NCBI RefSeq assembly: GCF_002250115.1
Contig: NZ_CP019985.1
Location: 3,658,001 to 3,722,000, forward strand
DNA: 64,000 nucleotides
Direction: 5' to 3'
Source: Shouchella clausii
GTDB lineage: Bacteria; Bacillota; Bacilli; Bacillales; Bacillaceae_D
Made by a program: the position numbers and the translations under genes
Notes under the pieces: model-generated
What the model was told of the DNA's origin: nothing
The model's database searches: none
The model's input: the letters and a program-made list of their open reading frames with translations, nothing else
Part shown: piece by piece, positions 27,529-62,052 of the stretch
Numbering within the stretch: position 1 is the stretch's first letter
How the letters are laid out: the number at the start of each line of letters is the position of its first letter

Positions 27529-27634
27529 GGTGGTTGCATAACTATGAATTTAGAAACAAAACGACAGTTTCCGCTGAAAACGAAGTCCGGCCTTTAGAGA
27601 GAGAAGAATTGAAATGGAGGAAAGGGTGGTGTCT

Positions 27635-30600
27635 ATGCGTAATGTAGGTTTTCCACAAAAGCAAGGGTTATACGATCCGGGGTTTGAGCACGATAACTGC
27701 GGAATAGGTTTCCTTGCGCAAATGAAAGGAAGGAAATCTCACAAACTTGTAGAGGATGCTTTGTTGATGCTTGAAAACCTTGAACATCGGGGCGGACAAG
27801 GAGATGAAATCAACACCGGCGATGGTGCTGGCATTTTAGTCCAGCTGCCAGACCGCTTTTTTAGAAAAGTGCTCCCTTTTGATCTTCCGGCAGCAGGAGC
27901 GTATGCAGTTGGGATGCTGTTTTTGCCCCGAGCAGAGGCAGCACGAAAAGCGTGCAAACAAAAAGTGGAAGCCGTGTTTGCAAAAGAGTCGTTGGTGCTA
28001 TTAGGCTGGCGCAATGTGCCAACAGACCCGTCTATGCTTGGAAAGGCAGCGCGTGGCTCCATGCCTGTCATTGAGCAAGTATTTGTAAAGAGCGCCAAGC
28101 CTCTTGATCAATTGGCGTTTGAGCGTAAGCTTTATGTAGCTCGGAAAGTAGCGGAACACGAAATTGAACCAACGATTTTGCCAGAAGAGTCATTTTATTT
28201 CGCCAGCTTCTCTAGCCGGACGATTGTGTATAAAGGAATGCTGACAACGGCCCAAGTAAGTATGTTTTATTTGGATTTGCTCGATGAAGCATTTGAGTCG
28301 GCGCTGGCGCTTGTCCATTCCCGTTTTAGCACGAACACATTTCCGAGCTGGGAACGTGCCCATCCAAATCGGTATATGATCCATAATGGCGAAATTAATA
28401 CGATTAAAGGAAACGTCAATTGGATGCACGCGAGGGAAGCGAAATTTGCTAGTGCCGCATTTGGAAGTGACCTTGAAAAAATCCATCCCGTTATCGACAA
28501 AAATGGCAGTGATTCCTCCATGTTTGATAACACGCTTGAGTTTTTGTCATTATCTGGGCGTTCTTTAGCTCATTGCGCGATGATGATGGTCCCAGAACCT
28601 TGGCAAAATAATAAACAGATGGACGAAAAGAAACGGGCGTTTTACGAATACCATAGCACACTTATGGAACCATGGGACGGACCAACCGCCATTGTGTTTA
28701 CGGACGGAGAAAAAATCGGGGCCACCCTTGACCGTAATGGCTTGCGCCCATCGCGCTATTATGTAACGAAAGATGATTATATTGTGATGAGCTCTGAAGT
28801 CGGCGTACTTGATTTCCCGCCAGAATCGATTGTTAAAAAAGACCGGCTTCATCCTGGACAGCTGTTGCTTGTTGATCTCACAGAAGGGCGCATTATTCCA
28901 GATGGGGAAGCCAAACAAGCAATTGTCGAAGAAAAACCTTATGGAAAGTGGGTCAAAGACCATTTAATTCATCTTGATGATGTGCTGGAAACAGCTGACG
29001 TGTTTGATACGGAATTTGAGCGCATCCATGAACGCCAACTTGTCTATGGGTATACGTATGAAGAACTAACAAAAATGCTAATGCCGCTTATTAAAGATGA
29101 AAATGACCCAGTCGGCTCGATGGGCTATGATTCGCCACTGGCAGTGCTATCGAAAAAGCCGCAGCTTCTCTATAACTATTTTAAGCAGCAATTTGCCCAA
29201 GTGACGAATCCGCCTATTGATGCGATTCGTGAAAAAGCGGTAACGGCTGTAGGTACGACAATTGGCGCAGAGCGGAACCTCCTTGAGCCGGAGCCACTAA
29301 GTTGTAGGCATATTTATTTGCCTTCGCCGATTCTGAATAATGAAGAATTAGCAAAACTTCGCTCAAACAAAATGGACGGCTTTAAAGCGGAAACGCTTGA
29401 AATCGTTTTTGACGCGCAAAAAGGCGGCCAAGGACTTGAAGAGGCTCTTGACACATTGTTTGCCAATGCTGATAAAGCCATTTCAAACGGCGCGACATTG
29501 CTGATTTTAAGCGACCGTACTATTTCAGCAGAGAAAGCCCCAATTCCAGCGCTTCTGGCTGTGTCCAGCTTGCATCACCATTTGATCCGCAGCGGCACGC
29601 GCACAGAAGTTAGCTTGCTAGTGGAGTCAGCCGAGCCCCGTGAAGTCCATCATCATGCATTATTGATCGGATACGGCGCGGAAGCAATCAACCCGTACTT
29701 CGTGTTCGACACAATTGACGACTGGATTCAAAAGCAGCTCTTAACAGATTACAGTTATGTAGAAGCTTGTACACGTTACGTGAATGGTACAACCAATGGA
29801 ATCATGAAAGTTCTGTCTAAAATGGGGATTTCAACAATTCAAAGTTATAGAGGCGCACAAATTTTTGAAGCCATTGGCATTGATCCACAGTTAATTGACC
29901 GCCACTTCACGTGGACAGCATCTCGTATAGGTGGAATCGGCTTCTCGACGATTGCGAACGAAGTTCTCGCCCGCCATGAACGCGCTTATTCACCTCGTGA
30001 AGGCGATGATGGTGAGCTTGATCCAGGGGATGATTTGCAGTGGCGCCGTAATGGGGAAGAACATCAATACAACCCACATACGATTCACATGCTCCAGCAT
30101 GCGTGCCGCACGAACAATTATGAGCTTTACAAACAATATACGCATGCGATCAATGAGCAAACAGAAAAGCAGACAAGTTTGCGTGGTCTTTTCCGCTTCA
30201 AAAAAGGCAACGCAATTCCGCTAGACGAAGTCGAACCGGCAGAATCGATTGTAAAGCGGTTCCGGACAGGTGCGATGTCATACGGGTCGATTTCGAAAGA
30301 AGCCCATGAAACGCTTGCGATTGCCATGAACCGCTTAGGCGGCAAAAGCAATACTGGCGAAGGTGGAGAAGATCCACGCCGCTTTACTCCTGATGAAAAT
30401 GGCGATTTGCGCCGCAGTGCTATTAAACAAGTAGCGTCCGGTCGATTTGGAGTTACTAGCCATTACCTTGTAAATGCAGATGAAATCCAAATTAAAGTCG
30501 CACAAGGAGCAAAGCCAGGGGAAGGGGGGCAACTTCCAGGCGAGAAAGTTTATCCGTGGGTGGCAGAAGTGCGTGGCTCGACGGCAGGTGTTGGCTTGAT

Positions 30601-32203
30601 TTCGCCACCACCTCACCATGACATTTATTCAATCGAGGATTTAGCTGAGCTTATCCATGATTTGAAAAACGCCAACCCGACTGCGAAAGTGAGCGTTAAG
30701 CTTGTGGCTGGAACAGGCGTCGGTACGATTGCGGCAGGCGTGGCAAAAGGAAGCGCTGATGGCATTATTATTAGCGGCTACGATGGCGGTACAGGAGCAG
30801 CGGCGCGGACAAGTATCAAGCACACTGGATTACCGTGGGAAATTGGCTTAGCAGAAACGCACCAGACACTGTTGCTGAACAATTTGCGTGACCGGGTGAC
30901 GTTGGAAACAGACGGCAAGCTCATGACGGGCAAAGACGTAGTCGTTGCTGCGCTATTAGGTGCTGAAGAATATGCGTTTTCGACTGCTCCTTTAGTTGTG
31001 CTCGGTTGTGTGATTATGCGCGTGTGCCATTTAGACACGTGCCCAGTTGGAATCGCCACTCAAAATCCAGAATTACGGCGAAAGTATACAGGAGAAGCCG
31101 ACTATATCGTCCGCTTTATGACATTCATTGCTGAGGATATGCGTGAACTGATGGCAGAGCTAGGTGTCCGCACGGTAGATGAGTTGGTAGGCAGAACCGA
31201 CTTGCTAGAAGTAAACGAACATATCAACAATGAAAAGGCGAAACAACTTGATTTATCGAACCTTCTCTTCAAACCGGAATCAAGTGGCGCAAAAGCTTGT
31301 ATCAAAACAAAAGCGCAAGATCATAAATTGGAACAGTCACTCGATGCAAGAGAGCTGCTAGAGGCAGCCAAACCAGCACTTCTCAATGGCGCGAAAGTAA
31401 CGTACGCAACGACCATTCGTAACACAGACCGGGTAGTCGGCACGATTGTCGGTAGTGAAGTGAGCAAAAAATACGGCGCAAAAGGCTTGCCGGAAAATAC
31501 GCTCTCTTTCTCATTTAATGGGTCGGCCGGGCAAAGCTTCGGTGCATTTATCCCTCAAGGCATTACCCTTCGGCTGGAAGGCGATGCAAACGACTATATC
31601 GGCAAAGGCTTATCAGGTGGAAAGATTGCCGTCTTTCCTGCGAGAAATGCGGCATTTGCCGCAAAAGACAACGTAATTGTCGGCAATACGTCTTTTTATG
31701 GCGCTACGTCTGGCAAGGCGTTTATCGCAGGTCAAGCAGGCGAACGGTTTTGCGTTCGGAATTCTGGAGCGCAAGTTGTTGTCGAAGGAATGGGTGACCA
31801 CGGGCTTGAGTATATGACAGGTGGCATTGTTGTCACACTTGGTGAAGTCGGCAAAAACTTTGCAGCTGGCATGTCAGGCGGCCTTGCCTTTGTCAATGAT
31901 GCAAATGGGACGTTTATAGACAAGTGCAACCAAGGAATGGTGTTGATCGAAAACGTTACAGCTGAGGACGAGAGGCTCTTGCACGCTCTTTTAACAGAGC
32001 ACGTTGAAGAGACAGGAAGTGAACAAGCGCAAAGGATTTTGAATAACTGGGAGCAAGTAAAAACAGACTTCGTAAAAGTCATTCCAAAAGACTATAAAAA
32101 CATGGTAATTGCGATCGAGAGATTGAAGCAGCAAGGCATGACTGAAGAAGAGGCTGCAATGGCTGCATTTGACGAATCAAAGCGAGACCGATCAAAAGTT
32201 TGA
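27635..32203 (+). CDS. gltA: Glutamate synthase (NADPH), large subunit
   Basis: A 1522-aa GOGAT large subunit. The class II glutaminase domain comes first, with catalytic Cys22 (EHDNCGIGF) exposed after removal of the N-terminal propeptide. The central domain, the FMN-binding synthase domain (GEGGEDPRRF, KPGEGGQLPG, GYDGGTGAA) and a [3Fe-4S] site (C-x5-C-x4-C in CVIMRVCHLDTCPVG) follow. The C-terminal GXGXG beta-helix domain is last. It makes two glutamates from glutamine and 2-oxoglutarate with GltB. The ATG at 27635 matches the B. subtilis GltA start. In-frame ATG 27614 would add seven residues. Confidence 0.95.
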   Translation: MRNVGFPQKQGLYDPGFEHDNCGIGFLAQMKGRKSHKLVEDALLMLENLEHRGGQGDEINTGDGAGILVQLPDRFFRKVLPFDLPAAGAYAVGMLFLPRAEAARKACKQKVEAVFAKESLVLLGWRNVPTDPSMLGKAARGSMPVIEQVFVKSAKPLDQLAFERKLYVARKVAEHEIEPTILPEESFYFASFSSRTIVYKGMLTTAQVSMFYLDLLDEAFESALALVHSRFSTNTFPSWERAHPNRYMIHNGEINTIKGNVNWMHAREAKFASAAFGSDLEKIHPVIDKNGSDSSMFDNTLEFLSLSGRSLAHCAMMMVPEPWQNNKQMDEKKRAFYEYHSTLMEPWDGPTAIVFTDGEKIGATLDRNGLRPSRYYVTKDDYIVMSSEVGVLDFPPESIVKKDRLHPGQLLLVDLTEGRIIPDGEAKQAIVEEKPYGKWVKDHLIHLDDVLETADVFDTEFERIHERQLVYGYTYEELTKMLMPLIKDENDPVGSMGYDSPLAVLSKKPQLLYNYFKQQFAQVTNPPIDAIREKAVTAVGTTIGAERNLLEPEPLSCRHIYLPSPILNNEELAKLRSNKMDGFKAETLEIVFDAQKGGQGLEEALDTLFANADKAISNGATLLILSDRTISAEKAPIPALLAVSSLHHHLIRSGTRTEVSLLVESAEPREVHHHALLIGYGAEAINPYFVFDTIDDWIQKQLLTDYSYVEACTRYVNGTTNGIMKVLSKMGISTIQSYRGAQIFEAIGIDPQLIDRHFTWTASRIGGIGFSTIANEVLARHERAYSPREGDDGELDPGDDLQWRRNGEEHQYNPHTIHMLQHACRTNNYELYKQYTHAINEQTEKQTSLRGLFRFKKGNAIPLDEVEPAESIVKRFRTGAMSYGSISKEAHETLAIAMNRLGGKSNTGEGGEDPRRFTPDENGDLRRSAIKQVASGRFGVTSHYLVNADEIQIKVAQGAKPGEGGQLPGEKVYPWVAEVRGSTAGVGLISPPPHHDIYSIEDLAELIHDLKNANPTAKVSVKLVAGTGVGTIAAGVAKGSADGIIISGYDGGTGAAARTSIKHTGLPWEIGLAETHQTLLLNNLRDRVTLETDGKLMTGKDVVVAALLGAEEYAFSTAPLVVLGCVIMRVCHLDTCPVGIATQNPELRRKYTGEADYIVRFMTFIAEDMRELMAELGVRTVDELVGRTDLLEVNEHINNEKAKQLDLSNLLFKPESSGAKACIKTKAQDHKLEQSLDARELLEAAKPALLNGAKVTYATTIRNTDRVVGTIVGSEVSKKYGAKGLPENTLSFSFNGSAGQSFGAFIPQGITLRLEGDANDYIGKGLSGGKIAVFPARNAAFAAKDNVIVGNTSFYGATSGKAFIAGQAGERFCVRNSGAQVVVEGMGDHGLEYMTGGIVVTLGEVGKNFAAGMSGGLAFVNDANGTFIDKCNQGMVLIENVTAEDERLLHALLTEHVEETGSEQAQRILNNWEQVKTDFVKVIPKDYKNMVIAIERLKQQGMTEEEAAMAAFDESKRDRSKV

Positions 32204-36489: not shown

Positions 36490-36667
36490 GTTTGAGATAG
36501 CCCCCCATACGTCCGTATGACAGTGCTGCCCTTGTTCAGAAACAGCCCCAATGGCACGGCCTTTGGGAAAGCCGCCCATTTCGGCATAAACCCCTTTCCG
36601 GCTGGTTCAAACAGATCCCAATTCCTCAGCAGCCGTACTGATCGTTTACGCGCCTCTACTCTCACAT
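36490..36667 (-). ncRNA. Lysine riboswitch (L box) of dapA
   Basis: The minus-strand leader carries the conserved L-box landmarks in order. These are GTAGAGGCGCG near 36655, AGTA in the loop-E region, GGAAAGGGG and GCCGAAATGGG in the middle, TTGGGGCTG, and CACTGTCAT with ATGGGGGGCTATC at the end. The outer stem closes GATAG (36495-36499 plus strand) against the first strand. Lysine binding would favour the terminator at 36431-36463. Open frames across this stretch on both strands are artefacts of the RNA's base composition. Confidence 0.92.
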
Positions 36668-53039: not shown

Positions 53040-53468
53040 GTCGCTTATGACAGATACATGTCTTCAGACAACCGCTGCGCATTTTATGCGTAGAGGAAAG
53101 TCCATGCTCGCACCGGCTGAGAGGCCGGTAGTGTTCGTGCCTAGCTAATCCATAAGCTAGGGCAGCTGCCTTGCAGCTGACGGCAGGAGAGATGCCTACG
53201 TCCAAATGGATAAGGCATGCACTCCTTGAAAGTGCCACAGTGACGTAGTCTGCTTGGAAACGGGCAGAGTGGAACGCGGTAAACCCCTCGAGCGAGAAAC
53301 CCAAACAATGGTAGGGGCATTTTTCAGTCTGAAAATGAACGGAACTGAAAAAACGAAGCAATTCGTAGATAGATGGTTGTCGCCGGAGTACGAGGCTCAT
53401 CACCGTTTGTAGTACAAAGGTACAGAACATGGCTTATCGATGGCATGGAGATGAACGTTATAAGCGAG
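53040..53468 (+). ncRNA. rnpB: RNase P RNA, Bacillus type (class B)
   Basis: The RNA component of RNase P, which cuts 5' leaders from tRNA precursors. Conserved stretches appear in order. These are AGAGGAAAGTCCATGCTCGC at ~53092, GTGTTCGTGCCTAGC, GACGGCAGGAGAGATGCCTACG, CTTGAAAGTGCCACAGTGAC, GAGTGGAACGCGGTAAACCC, CGAGCGAGAAACCC, and AGTACGAGG near the end. The 5' end (GTCGCTTATGAC) pairs with GTTATAAGCGAGC near 53465 to form P1. The layout is the B type. Open frames crossing it are not genes. Confidence 0.97.
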
Positions 53469-60246: not shown

Positions 60247-60275
60247 TTTACAGTAAAAATATGATTCGTTATAAT
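60247..60275 (+). promoter_or_regulatory. Sigma-A promoter of small RNA candidate 1
   Basis: TTTACA (60247-60252), 17 bases, TATAAT (60270-60275). No coding gene of normal size follows before a terminator. Confidence 0.78.
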
Positions 60276-60281
60276 GCAGTT

Positions 60282-60347
60282 ATCTCCCTTCTTTCTGGTA
60301 GTGGGGTGAGCCATGATTGGAGCTGACTTTTGGTCAGCTCCTTTTTT
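60282..60347 (+). ncRNA. Small RNA candidate 1 (about 65 nt, promoter plus terminator)
   Basis: The predicted transcript runs from the promoter at 60247-60275 to a strong terminator (GGAGCTGAC 60319-60327, GTCAGCTCC 60333-60341, then six T). The 5' part is an unpaired pyrimidine-rich stretch (TTATCTCCCTTCTTTC), as found in base-pairing small RNAs that mask ribosome sites. A 15-codon frame from ATG 60313 overlaps the terminator and ends at TAG 60358-60360; GGGGTGAG lies too close to it to be convincing. Confidence 0.55.
60319..60347 (+). terminator. Terminator of small RNA candidate 1
   Basis: A perfect 9-bp GC-rich stem with a 5-base loop and six T. Confidence 0.88.
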
Positions 60348-60382: not shown

Positions 60383-60412
60383 TTGACAACGAGAATGATA
60401 TTCATTATCATT
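60383..60412 (+). promoter_or_regulatory. Promoter with overlapping Fur box
   Basis: TTGACA (60383-60388), 17 bases, TATCAT (60406-60411). The 19 bases 60391-60409 match the Fur box consensus GATAATGATAATCATTATC at 17 positions and cover the spacer and the -10. Iron-loaded Fur would block this promoter. Confidence 0.85.
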
Positions 60413-60417
60413 TGATT

Positions 60418-60488
60418 TGTAAGATCCCCCTTATCCCTTTTCAAAATTTTCCTTTGAAGCCTTTGCCATTGTGGCAAAGGCTTTTTTT
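60418..60488 (+). ncRNA. fsrA: Fur-controlled small RNA, probable FsrA counterpart
   Basis: A ~71-nt transcript is predicted between the Fur-controlled promoter and a terminator (GCCTTTGCC 60459-60467, GGCAAAGGC 60473-60481, seven T). The single-stranded 5' region contains two C-rich blocks (ATCCCCCTTATCCC). FsrA of B. subtilis is a Fur-repressed RNA of similar size with C-rich single-stranded stretches that silences iron-rich enzymes by pairing to ribosome sites. The assignment rests on this architecture; I could not align it to a reference. Confidence 0.72.
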
Positions 60489-60509
60489 GCTTGCAGAATC
60501 CATTTTCCA

Positions 60510-62041
60510 GCCTGTCGACAAAGTCTCGGTTTTCCCGAGACAGTCGACAGGCTTTTTTGTACAATAAAAAAGAGAAAAAGGGTACGGGGTGAGAGGAAAC
60601 ATGTTGTCCAAACAGCTGGAAGATAAACGGATGCAGATGGAGATGGTCTGGATTGAAAAGCTGGTGCCAGAGGATCATCTCGTTCGGAAGCTTGATGCGG
60701 CGATTGACTTTGATTTCATTTATGACCTTGTCGAAGACCTTTATTCAAAAGACAGGGGCCGGCCGAGTGTCGATCCCGTGGTGTTAATCAAAATGGTTTT
60801 CATTCAATACATCTTTGGGATTCGTTCGATGCGCCAAACGATTAAAGAAATCGAAACCAATGTGGCCTACCGTTGGTTTTTAGGATTTGGCTTTGAGGAC
60901 AAGATTCCCCACTTTTCTACGTTTGGGAAGAACTACGTTCGTCGTTTCCGGGACAGTGACGTGTTTGAACAACTCTTTTATCGGATTCTGAAACAAGCTA
61001 TGGACAAAGGATTTGTGAGTCCAGAGGTGGCTTTTATCGACTCGACTTCCATTAAAGCCAACGCCAATAAACGAAAGCATCGTAAAAAGGTCGTACGCAC
61101 CGAGACGCGTGCCTATCAAAACCAACTAGAAGAAGAAATCAATGGGGAACGGGTGAAAAACGGAAAAAAGCCCCTGCCTCCCTCGAAAAAAGATCCTACG
61201 AGGGAGGTCAAGGAGAGTACCACGGATCCTGAGAGCGGTTATTACGTCAAAAGCGAGCGGGAAAAGATGTTTGCCTACAGTTTCCATACCGCTTGTGATG
61301 CCAATGGATTTGTTTTAGGTACGATCGTAAAACCGGGGAATGTCCACGACAGCCAAGTATTCCACGAACTGTTTGACCAATTGAAAGACAAGGTGTGCCG
61401 ACCGAAGGTCGCCGCTGTGGATGCGGGCTATAAAACGCCTGCCATTGCCAAAAAACTTCAAGAAGAAGGCGTTCATCCGGTTATGCCGTATAAACGCCCG
61501 ATGACCCCTAAAGGCTATATCCGAAAAAACGAGTTTGTCTATGATGAATACTACGATTGTTTTCTCTGCCCACAAAACCAGGTGCTTTCTTACCGAACGA
61601 CGAATCGAGAGGGGTACCGGGAATATGTCTCCGACCCTCGGATTTGTGAGACGTGCCCACTGCTCGCTCAATGTACAAAGAGCCAAAACCACCAAAAGCT
61701 CGTTCTTCGCCATATTTGGCAAGATGCTCTGGATGAGGCAGAACATCTGAGGCATACGGAACGGAACCGAGACATCTATGCCAAGCGAAAAGAAACGATT
61801 GAGCGTGTCTTTGCCGATCTGAAACAGAAGCATGGTCTGCGTTGGACCAACCTGAAAGGGTTGGAAAAAAATGCAATGCAGGCGATGCTTGTTTTCGCTG
61901 CGATGAACTTGAAAAAATTAGCCACCTGGAGTTGGAGGAAGAACACCCCTCCAACTTCAAAGTCTCCAAAGTCCACCCACCTTTTTATCATCAACAAAAC
62001 GCCTTTGAGAATCATTTTCTCAAAGGCGTTTTGTCTACGCT
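60510..62041 (+). mobile_element. IS1182-family insertion sequence
   Basis: An IS element of about 1.5 kb with one transposase gene. Bounds are approximate. Both ends carry a long hairpin with terminator character. The left one is GCCTGTCGAC/GTCGACAGGC with GTCTCGG/CCGAGAC at 60510-60552, then T residues. The right one is AACGCCTTTGAGAA/TTCTCAAAGGCGTT at ~61998-62030, then GTCTACGC. A short shared end sequence GT(C/A)GACAAA (60514-60522 and, inverted, 62030-62038) may be the core of the terminal repeat. Such hairpins shield the transposase gene from outside transcription. No clear target duplication was found. Confidence 0.75.
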
Positions 62042-62052
62042 CTGTTTCTTAA
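60601..62052 (+). CDS. IS1182-family transposase
   Basis: A 483-aa transposase. The N-terminal helix-turn-helix domain (DUF772 type) has SVDPVVLIKMVFIQYIFGIRSMRQTIKEI. The DDE catalytic core begins at AFIDSTSIKANANKRKH, the second Asp is in VAAVDAGYKTPAIA, and the Glu lies in KETIERVFADLKQKHGLRW near the C terminus. The zinc-like Cys cluster CxxC-x...CETCPLLAQC is also typical of IS1182. The frame is uninterrupted, so it may be active. The ATG at 60601 follows GAGAGG. The last ~20 codons run through the right-end hairpin and past it. Confidence 0.9.
   Translation: MLSKQLEDKRMQMEMVWIEKLVPEDHLVRKLDAAIDFDFIYDLVEDLYSKDRGRPSVDPVVLIKMVFIQYIFGIRSMRQTIKEIETNVAYRWFLGFGFEDKIPHFSTFGKNYVRRFRDSDVFEQLFYRILKQAMDKGFVSPEVAFIDSTSIKANANKRKHRKKVVRTETRAYQNQLEEEINGERVKNGKKPLPPSKKDPTREVKESTTDPESGYYVKSEREKMFAYSFHTACDANGFVLGTIVKPGNVHDSQVFHELFDQLKDKVCRPKVAAVDAGYKTPAIAKKLQEEGVHPVMPYKRPMTPKGYIRKNEFVYDEYYDCFLCPQNQVLSYRTTNREGYREYVSDPRICETCPLLAQCTKSQNHQKLVLRHIWQDALDEAEHLRHTERNRDIYAKRKETIERVFADLKQKHGLRWTNLKGLEKNAMQAMLVFAAMNLKKLATWSWRKNTPPTSKSPKSTHLFIINKTPLRIIFSKAFCLRSVS

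Follow-up and report, generated by a model that had tools for sequence, protein, structure and literature searches.

FsrA-type control is best known from Bacillus subtilis, in which the fsrA gene lies between ykuI and ykuJ and FsrA acts together with FbpA, FbpB and FbpC. A passage of a 2021 review describes FsrA as a Fur-repressed RNA that inhibits the translation of gltAB, citB and sdhCAB, and states that its base pairing in vivo was shown only for gltAB (PMC8464778). Other described systems bear comparison: IsrR of Staphylococcus aureus, an iron-repressed RNA with C-rich regions and predicted action on iron-enzyme mRNAs, as part of PMC9410917 has it; PrrF1/PrrF2 and the duplicated RyhB, in which two Fur-repressed iron-sparing RNAs occur per genome (the duplication is described in a section of PMC9410917); and RoxS/RsaE, a C-rich RNA acting on central metabolism, placed under ResD and Rex, not Fur, in a passage of the 2021 review (PMC8464778). 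Among the literature matches listed, no title dealt with a small RNA under Fur control in either Shouchella or B. clausii.

The window analysed here, a 64,000-nucleotide stretch of the genome of Shouchella clausii (4.5 Mb, genus Shouchella), contains a predicted Fur-controlled RNA, called RNA A below; a second RNA with a Fur promoter, RNA B, is encoded in the same genome (Table 1). RNA A resembles FsrA in the Fur box lying over the promoter, the C-rich unpaired region, the terminator and the predicted pairing with the gltA and citB ribosome sites; it differs in length (about 70 nt, compared to the 84 nt of FsrA), in neighbourhood, in giving no match to the FsrA covariance model, in having no preference for sdhC or leuCD, and in sharing its genome with a second Fur RNA. 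The likeness to IsrR is one of description only, IsrR being 174 nt long and having three stem-loops as well as three C-rich regions. Unlike the PrrF1/PrrF2 and RyhB pairs, the two RNAs of Shouchella are dissimilar in sequence, predicted fold and predicted targets, and the match of RNA A to RoxS/RsaE is weak and sub-threshold (RF01820, 34.3 bits, gathering score 79). We consider it likely that RNA A is a trans-acting, Fur-controlled RNA of the S. clausii clade, FsrA-like but separate, which pairs with gltA and more weakly with citB, RNA B being the older FsrA counterpart.

Table 1 Positions of RNA A and its elements, the adjoining insertion sequence, the predicted target gltA and RNA B (window positions unless a genome position is given).
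Feature	Position	Strand	Details
RNA A promoter	60383..60411	+	TTGACA 60383-60388, 17-nt spacer, TATCAT 60406-60411; 11/12
Predicted Fur box GAGAATGATATTCATTATC	60391..60409	+	17/19; 2 mismatches to the 19-mer
RNA A (predicted transcript)	about 60419..60488	+	~70 nt; start inferred from -10 spacing
C-rich block GTAAGATCCCCCTTATCCCTTTTCAA, proposed seed region	60419..60444	+	C runs 60426-60430, 60435-60437
Intrinsic terminator	60456..60488	+	stem 60456-60484, 13 pairs; T run to 60488
IS element, ~1.54 kb	60508..62048	+	DDE transposase; TTTC before each junction; later insertion, outside RNA A
gltA leader and start region	27591..27639	+	predicted pairing with RNA A nt 1-41, -34.4 kcal/mol
gltA, glutamate synthase large subunit (predicted target)	27635..32203	+	1522 aa; GATase_2, Glu_synthase, Glu_syn_central, GXGXG
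RNA B in the window's own genome (G000)	G000:C1:153650-153759 = L052 5651-5760	-	between ABC-transporter ATPase gene and pcrB

Promoter, fold and coding potential of RNA A

Within the RNA A promoter, the Fur box spans 15 of the 17 bases of the spacer as well as four of those in the -10 hexamer. Matches to the Fur-box pattern at up to 3 mismatches averaged 0.01 in 100 shuffles of the window, and the whole of G000 holds 12 on the forward and 12 on the reverse strand, compared to 0 for the reversed pattern. The minimum free energy of RNA A was -21.3 kcal/mol, versus -9.2 ± 2.2 kcal/mol for its shuffles (0 of 200 as low, z -5.5), the fold consisting, in order, of a weak 5-bp hairpin with a C run in the loop, an unpaired CCC and the 13-pair terminator stem. 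Inspection by eye showed no start codon preceded by a ribosome site inside RNA A. The initial annotation had described a promoter with a 17/19 Fur box over spacer and -10, followed by about 70 nt with two unpaired C-rich blocks, a strong terminator and no gene: the coordinates and the shuffle test bore out the former, and the fold and reading of the sequence the latter. The sequence features of the Fur-repressed C-rich iron-sparing RNAs, a class defined by function and not by homology, are present at the locus: a predicted Fur promoter, then a short RNA that is non-coding by inspection, with unpaired runs of C and a terminator. RNA A is probably a non-coding RNA with a putative Fur promoter, its transcription and its control by Fur being read from the sequence.

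Distribution and relationships of RNA A and RNA B

Full-length matches to RNA A were absent from nine of the 13 Shouchella genomes; the RNA was present in four (G000, G006, G010, G011), that is, near full-length and about 91% identical in three of the 12 genomes other than the window's own. A pattern scan of named genomes placed it in S. clausii AKU0647, S. rhizosphaerae and S. tritolerans; one of the seven pattern matches of that scan, in Aeromonas sanarellii, was inspected and taken as chance. In the alignment of the four genomes (G010 and G011 have the same sequence across promoter and RNA), the identical columns were: 26 of 26 in the C-rich block, 26 of 29 in the promoter plus Fur box, 28 of 33 in the terminator (relatives with shortened terminator arms still keep the stem), and 18 of 35 in the spacer 5' of the promoter. 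The C-rich block anticipated in relatives was present there unchanged, with its flanks conserved too: since the 19 bases 3' of the terminator (18 identical) and the transcript upstream of RNA A (61 of 72 columns) are also conserved, conservation is not limited to the block.

The genes around RNA A (an MCP gene, an IS transposase gene and a GerAC-family gene) place it outside the ykuI-ykuJ neighbourhood and beside an IS element, both as annotated initially. The same annotation considered the spread of the RNA worth studying on this account; spread with the IS is not supported by the three relatives, which hold RNA A in the same neighbourhood, followed by the same two genes, with the IS missing. 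These relatives rule out the IS as the carrier of RNA A, and the IS therefore arrived beside a pre-existing RNA A. The stop codon of the IS transposase, TAA at 62050-62052, sits in flanking target DNA.

RNA B (about 80 nt), as read at Fur sites across the genus, follows a Fur promoter and has a hairpin at its 5' end, then AGACCCC(C), then a terminator. The pattern detected it in nine of the 13 Shouchella genomes, and reading added G009 and the diverged copies of G003 and G007, giving 12 of 13; it was not found by pattern in G012, where two Fur sites were read, one inside a gene start and one before a gene. A PcrB-family gene lies 3' of RNA B in the six genomes whose flanks were read (the own genome, G002, G003, G004, G008 and G009), with one frame between the two in G008. 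Part of the 5' hairpin of RNA B shows complementarity to the region around the sdhC start. RNA B is probably the older FsrA counterpart in Shouchella, and fits the FsrA role better than RNA A.

The Rfam model of FsrA (RF02273, gathering score 80 bits) gave no match at RNA A, nor at RNA B (own-genome search and five RNA B loci). The positive controls, seven of seven loci (L020-L026) of genus g48 in family f43, which is presumably the B. subtilis group, scored 109-116 bits. The best RF02273 match elsewhere in G000 (20.8 bits) was rejected, the 701 bases around it holding a gene end and an ordinary hairpin with no Fur box, and the sub-threshold Rfam matches at RNA A (FsrA, RoxS, PyrR and others) were set aside, all being under their cut-offs.

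The initial annotation had taken RNA A to be the same regulator as FsrA, a claim given up here in view of the missing RF02273 match and the better fit of RNA B to the FsrA role. That RNA A might be a true FsrA orthologue, relocated and diverged past recognition, is very improbable: it shares the promoter/Fur-box layout and the C-rich unpaired region of FsrA, and gltA and citB are among its predicted partners, but the covariance model passes over it, 258 to 302 of 500 shuffles were equally similar to an f43 FsrA, and its full-length match is missing from nine of 13 genomes of a genus in which RNA B was seen in 12. Descent from the other Fur RNA of the genome, the RNA B gene having been duplicated in the S. 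clausii lineage or earlier, seems rather unlikely. Scored with an RNA B model, the RNA A of the window reaches 21.4 bits (E 0.03) and that of its relatives 24.7 and 26.2 bits, and only 0 to 3 of 500 shuffles attain the similarity, mostly in the terminator, that RNA A shows to the RNA B of G003 and of G007. In that scoring, however, the model's 5' part falls on the Fur box of RNA A and not on the RNA, and RNA A lacks the 5' hairpin of RNA B; with the own genome's RNA B, between 39 and 205 of the 500 shuffles did as well (three RNA A variants), and with the RNA B of G001 and G009 between 83 and 351 of 500. We give almost no credence to the Fur box and promoter driving the downstream IS transposase in place of a small RNA: in its favour, the transposase frame begins about 100 bp 3' of the terminator, but that 13-pair terminator stands in between, and the RNA A unit is conserved in the three relatives with no IS at the site.

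Predicted targets of the two RNAs

Pairing energies were obtained with RNAduplex on gene starts of the own genome: a first set of 424, from 24 stretches including the window and stretches picked for sdh, leu, citB and nad, and an extended set of 773, covering about 19% of the genome, found with a simple gene caller of our own and with the iron-enzyme stretches chosen, not random. Among the 424 starts, the best partner of RNA A, used as its nt 1-41, was gltA (-34.4 kcal/mol, the next being -29.0 kcal/mol), and the other ranks were citB 29, sdhC 124, nadA 198, leuC 288 and leuD 396; RNA B ranked sdhC 1, citB 2, leuD 89, gltA 98, nadA 209 and leuC 336. None of 120 shuffled versions of RNA A reached the A-gltA or the A-citB energy on these starts, and 95 to 115 of 120 reached the real energies with sdhC, leuC, leuD and nadA; for RNA B, one of 120 shuffles reached B-citB and three reached B-sdhC. 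With accessibility costs on the same starts, the ranks were gltA 1, nadA 11, citB 31, sdhC 255, leuC 381 and leuD 420 for RNA A, and citB 1, sdhC 10, nadA 122, leuD 137 and leuC 420 for RNA B. Among the 773 starts, gltA was again first for RNA A, with a poly-G-leader ORF without Pfam match 0.1 kcal/mol behind and citB at 56, and RNA B gave sdhC 2, citB 3 and gltA 177. The rank of gltA depends on how much of RNA A is used: it drops to 6 when nt 1-28 are taken and to 8 or 25 for the complete RNA, for which citB comes at 210 or 107. The gltA gene of the window had been put forward initially as a possible target and kept this place, by computation only, as the first of 424 and then of 773; among the further candidates named with it, citB was moderately favoured and sdhC and leuCD were not.

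The neighbouring C-rich transcript RNA2, run as a control on the 424 starts, ranked gltA 121, sdhC 300 and citB 387. On the same leaders the ranks for non-cognate RNAs were: sdhC 1, gltA 70 and citB 123 (FsrA of L024); nadA 1, leuC 34, sdhC 37, gltA 86 and citB 146 (an f31 RNA); citB 20, sdhC 22 and gltA 54 (an f22 RNA); and sdhC 15, gltA 19 and citB 26 (the RNA B of G007). Because non-cognate RNAs also rank sdhC high, the sdhC leader draws C-rich RNAs in general, and the B-sdhC pairing therefore rests mainly on the cross-species shuffle test. Ribosome sites of the type AAGGGGGA are common in the genome (118 matches, versus 40 for the reversed pattern), so that any C-rich RNA pairs widely; the pattern "AAGGGGGA before a start" was dropped as a target finder, being too common. 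A 13-base perfect match to the C-block before a dksA/traR zinc-finger gene (3354799) was also discarded, as the gene is not an iron enzyme.

The cross-species pairing test, with 500 shuffles each, included RNA B in eight of 12 genomes (G002, G006, G010 and G011 were omitted, being the same over the stretch used as one tested) and only the 3' part of this RNA in G003. In G000, G006 and G010, respectively, the A-gltA energy was reached by 0, 0 and 5 shuffles (z -4.2, -3.8 and -2.7), A-citB by 0, 16 and 20, and A-sdhC, which was not favoured, by 458, 466 and 446 (z +1.1 to +1.3). For RNA B (G000, G001, G004, G009, G005, G008, G007 and G003, in this order), the counts were 0, 8, 4, 15, 0, 1, 6 and 54 with citB (z -1.3 to -4.0, and -2.1 or lower in seven of the eight genomes); 12, 0, 0, 0, 80, 16, 211 and 142 with sdhC; and 291, 325, 330, 165, 325, 404, 100 and 143 with gltA, which was not favoured in any of the eight (z -0.8 to +0.9). 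RNA A and RNA B therefore differ in their favoured partners. The energy of RNA A with gltA leaders was -30.7 to -34.4 kcal/mol where RNA A is present and -17.6 to -25.1 kcal/mol in seven species without it; because the latter leaders also pair, part of the gltA complementarity predates RNA A, and because the four RNA A genomes are closely related, conservation of the A-gltA pairing is weak evidence. A matched change was found in G003, where RNA B has AAGAUCCCC and the citB leader GGGGAUCUU, compared to AGACCCC and GGGUCU in the others; the change comes from a single lineage, in which the B-citB energy also stands out least from its shuffles.

RNA A could also be a Fur-repressed C-rich RNA with other main targets, gltA being one of many ribosome-site matches. 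The first rank of gltA among 773 starts with the unpaired part of RNA A, the energy reached by none of the 120 shuffles, and the naming of gltA as a candidate ahead of the pairing test make this unlikely, even with the points that speak for it: the commonness of the AAGGGGGA ribosome sites, the drop of gltA to ranks 6-25 at other RNA A lengths, the rank of 11 of nadA, an iron-sulfur gene, when accessibility costs are included, and that of a gene for a hexapeptide transferase (resembling cysE by eye; Pfam Hexapep only), third for RNA A and within the top 4 for RNA B among the 773. This last gene (L248 8190-8855, minus strand; G000:C1:1208189-1208854) has GGAGGGGGATCAG before its start. In E. 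coli, cysE is a target of RyhB.

In the reading that we prefer, RNA A as an FsrA-like but separate RNA with gltA as its main partner, iron-loaded Fur would silence RNA A by occupying the spacer and -10, and iron shortage would lead to its production. The C/U-rich 5' part (about 41 nt) would pair with the ribosome-binding region of gltA, the gene of the iron-using glutamate synthase, and more weakly with that of citB, blocking translation and sparing iron. By analogy with FsrA, we infer that RNA A covers the gltA ribosome site in low iron. The predicted partners of RNA B, in the pcrB neighbourhood, are citB and sdhC. As a tentative extension, two structurally different Fur-repressed RNAs may divide the FsrA regulon, with citB and sdhC falling to the old RNA B, and gltAB and part of citB to the newly gained RNA A. 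If true, the job done by a single RNA, FsrA, in B. subtilis may be split between two RNAs here. Shouchella offers a clean case, with one old, near genus-wide RNA and a later one that is confined to a clade and differs in predicted target; the gain of a small RNA and its takeover of a target can be put to the test in such a pair. Since S. clausii serves as a probiotic, iron control of its nitrogen assimilation is of practical interest.

Other Fur-promoter loci and further features of the window

C-rich RNAs with Fur promoters occur outside f43 in families f7, f11, f22, f31 and f33. Among the Fur-promoter loci searched with RF02273, the matches comprised all seven of f43 and none from five other Bacillales families, whose C-rich RNAs with Fur promoters at L015-L018, L233, L238 and L239 gave no FsrA match. 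Another Fur-promoter C-rich RNA outside f43 is found at L234, and a genome of f22 (G263) holds two different ones (L037 and L227). A gene with a Fur box, seen in several families (L043, L044, L228-L231, L235-L237), encodes a small protein whose start looks signal-like and which contains an AYSYGDPNEEK-like motif (by eye).

Just 5' of RNA A, the window contains a separate transcript (60247-60347, plus strand) with TTTACA-17-TATAAT, TCTCCCTTCTTTCTGGTAGT and a terminator. Indels across the four genomes break any short reading frame in it, and no Fur box was seen at this transcript. A role as a sponge of RNA A was rejected, as 156, 179 and 232 of 300 shuffles paired equally well. Two further RNA elements of the window scored above their Rfam cut-offs: an RNase P RNA of class B (53060-53441, plus strand) and a lysine riboswitch (36490-36666, minus strand).
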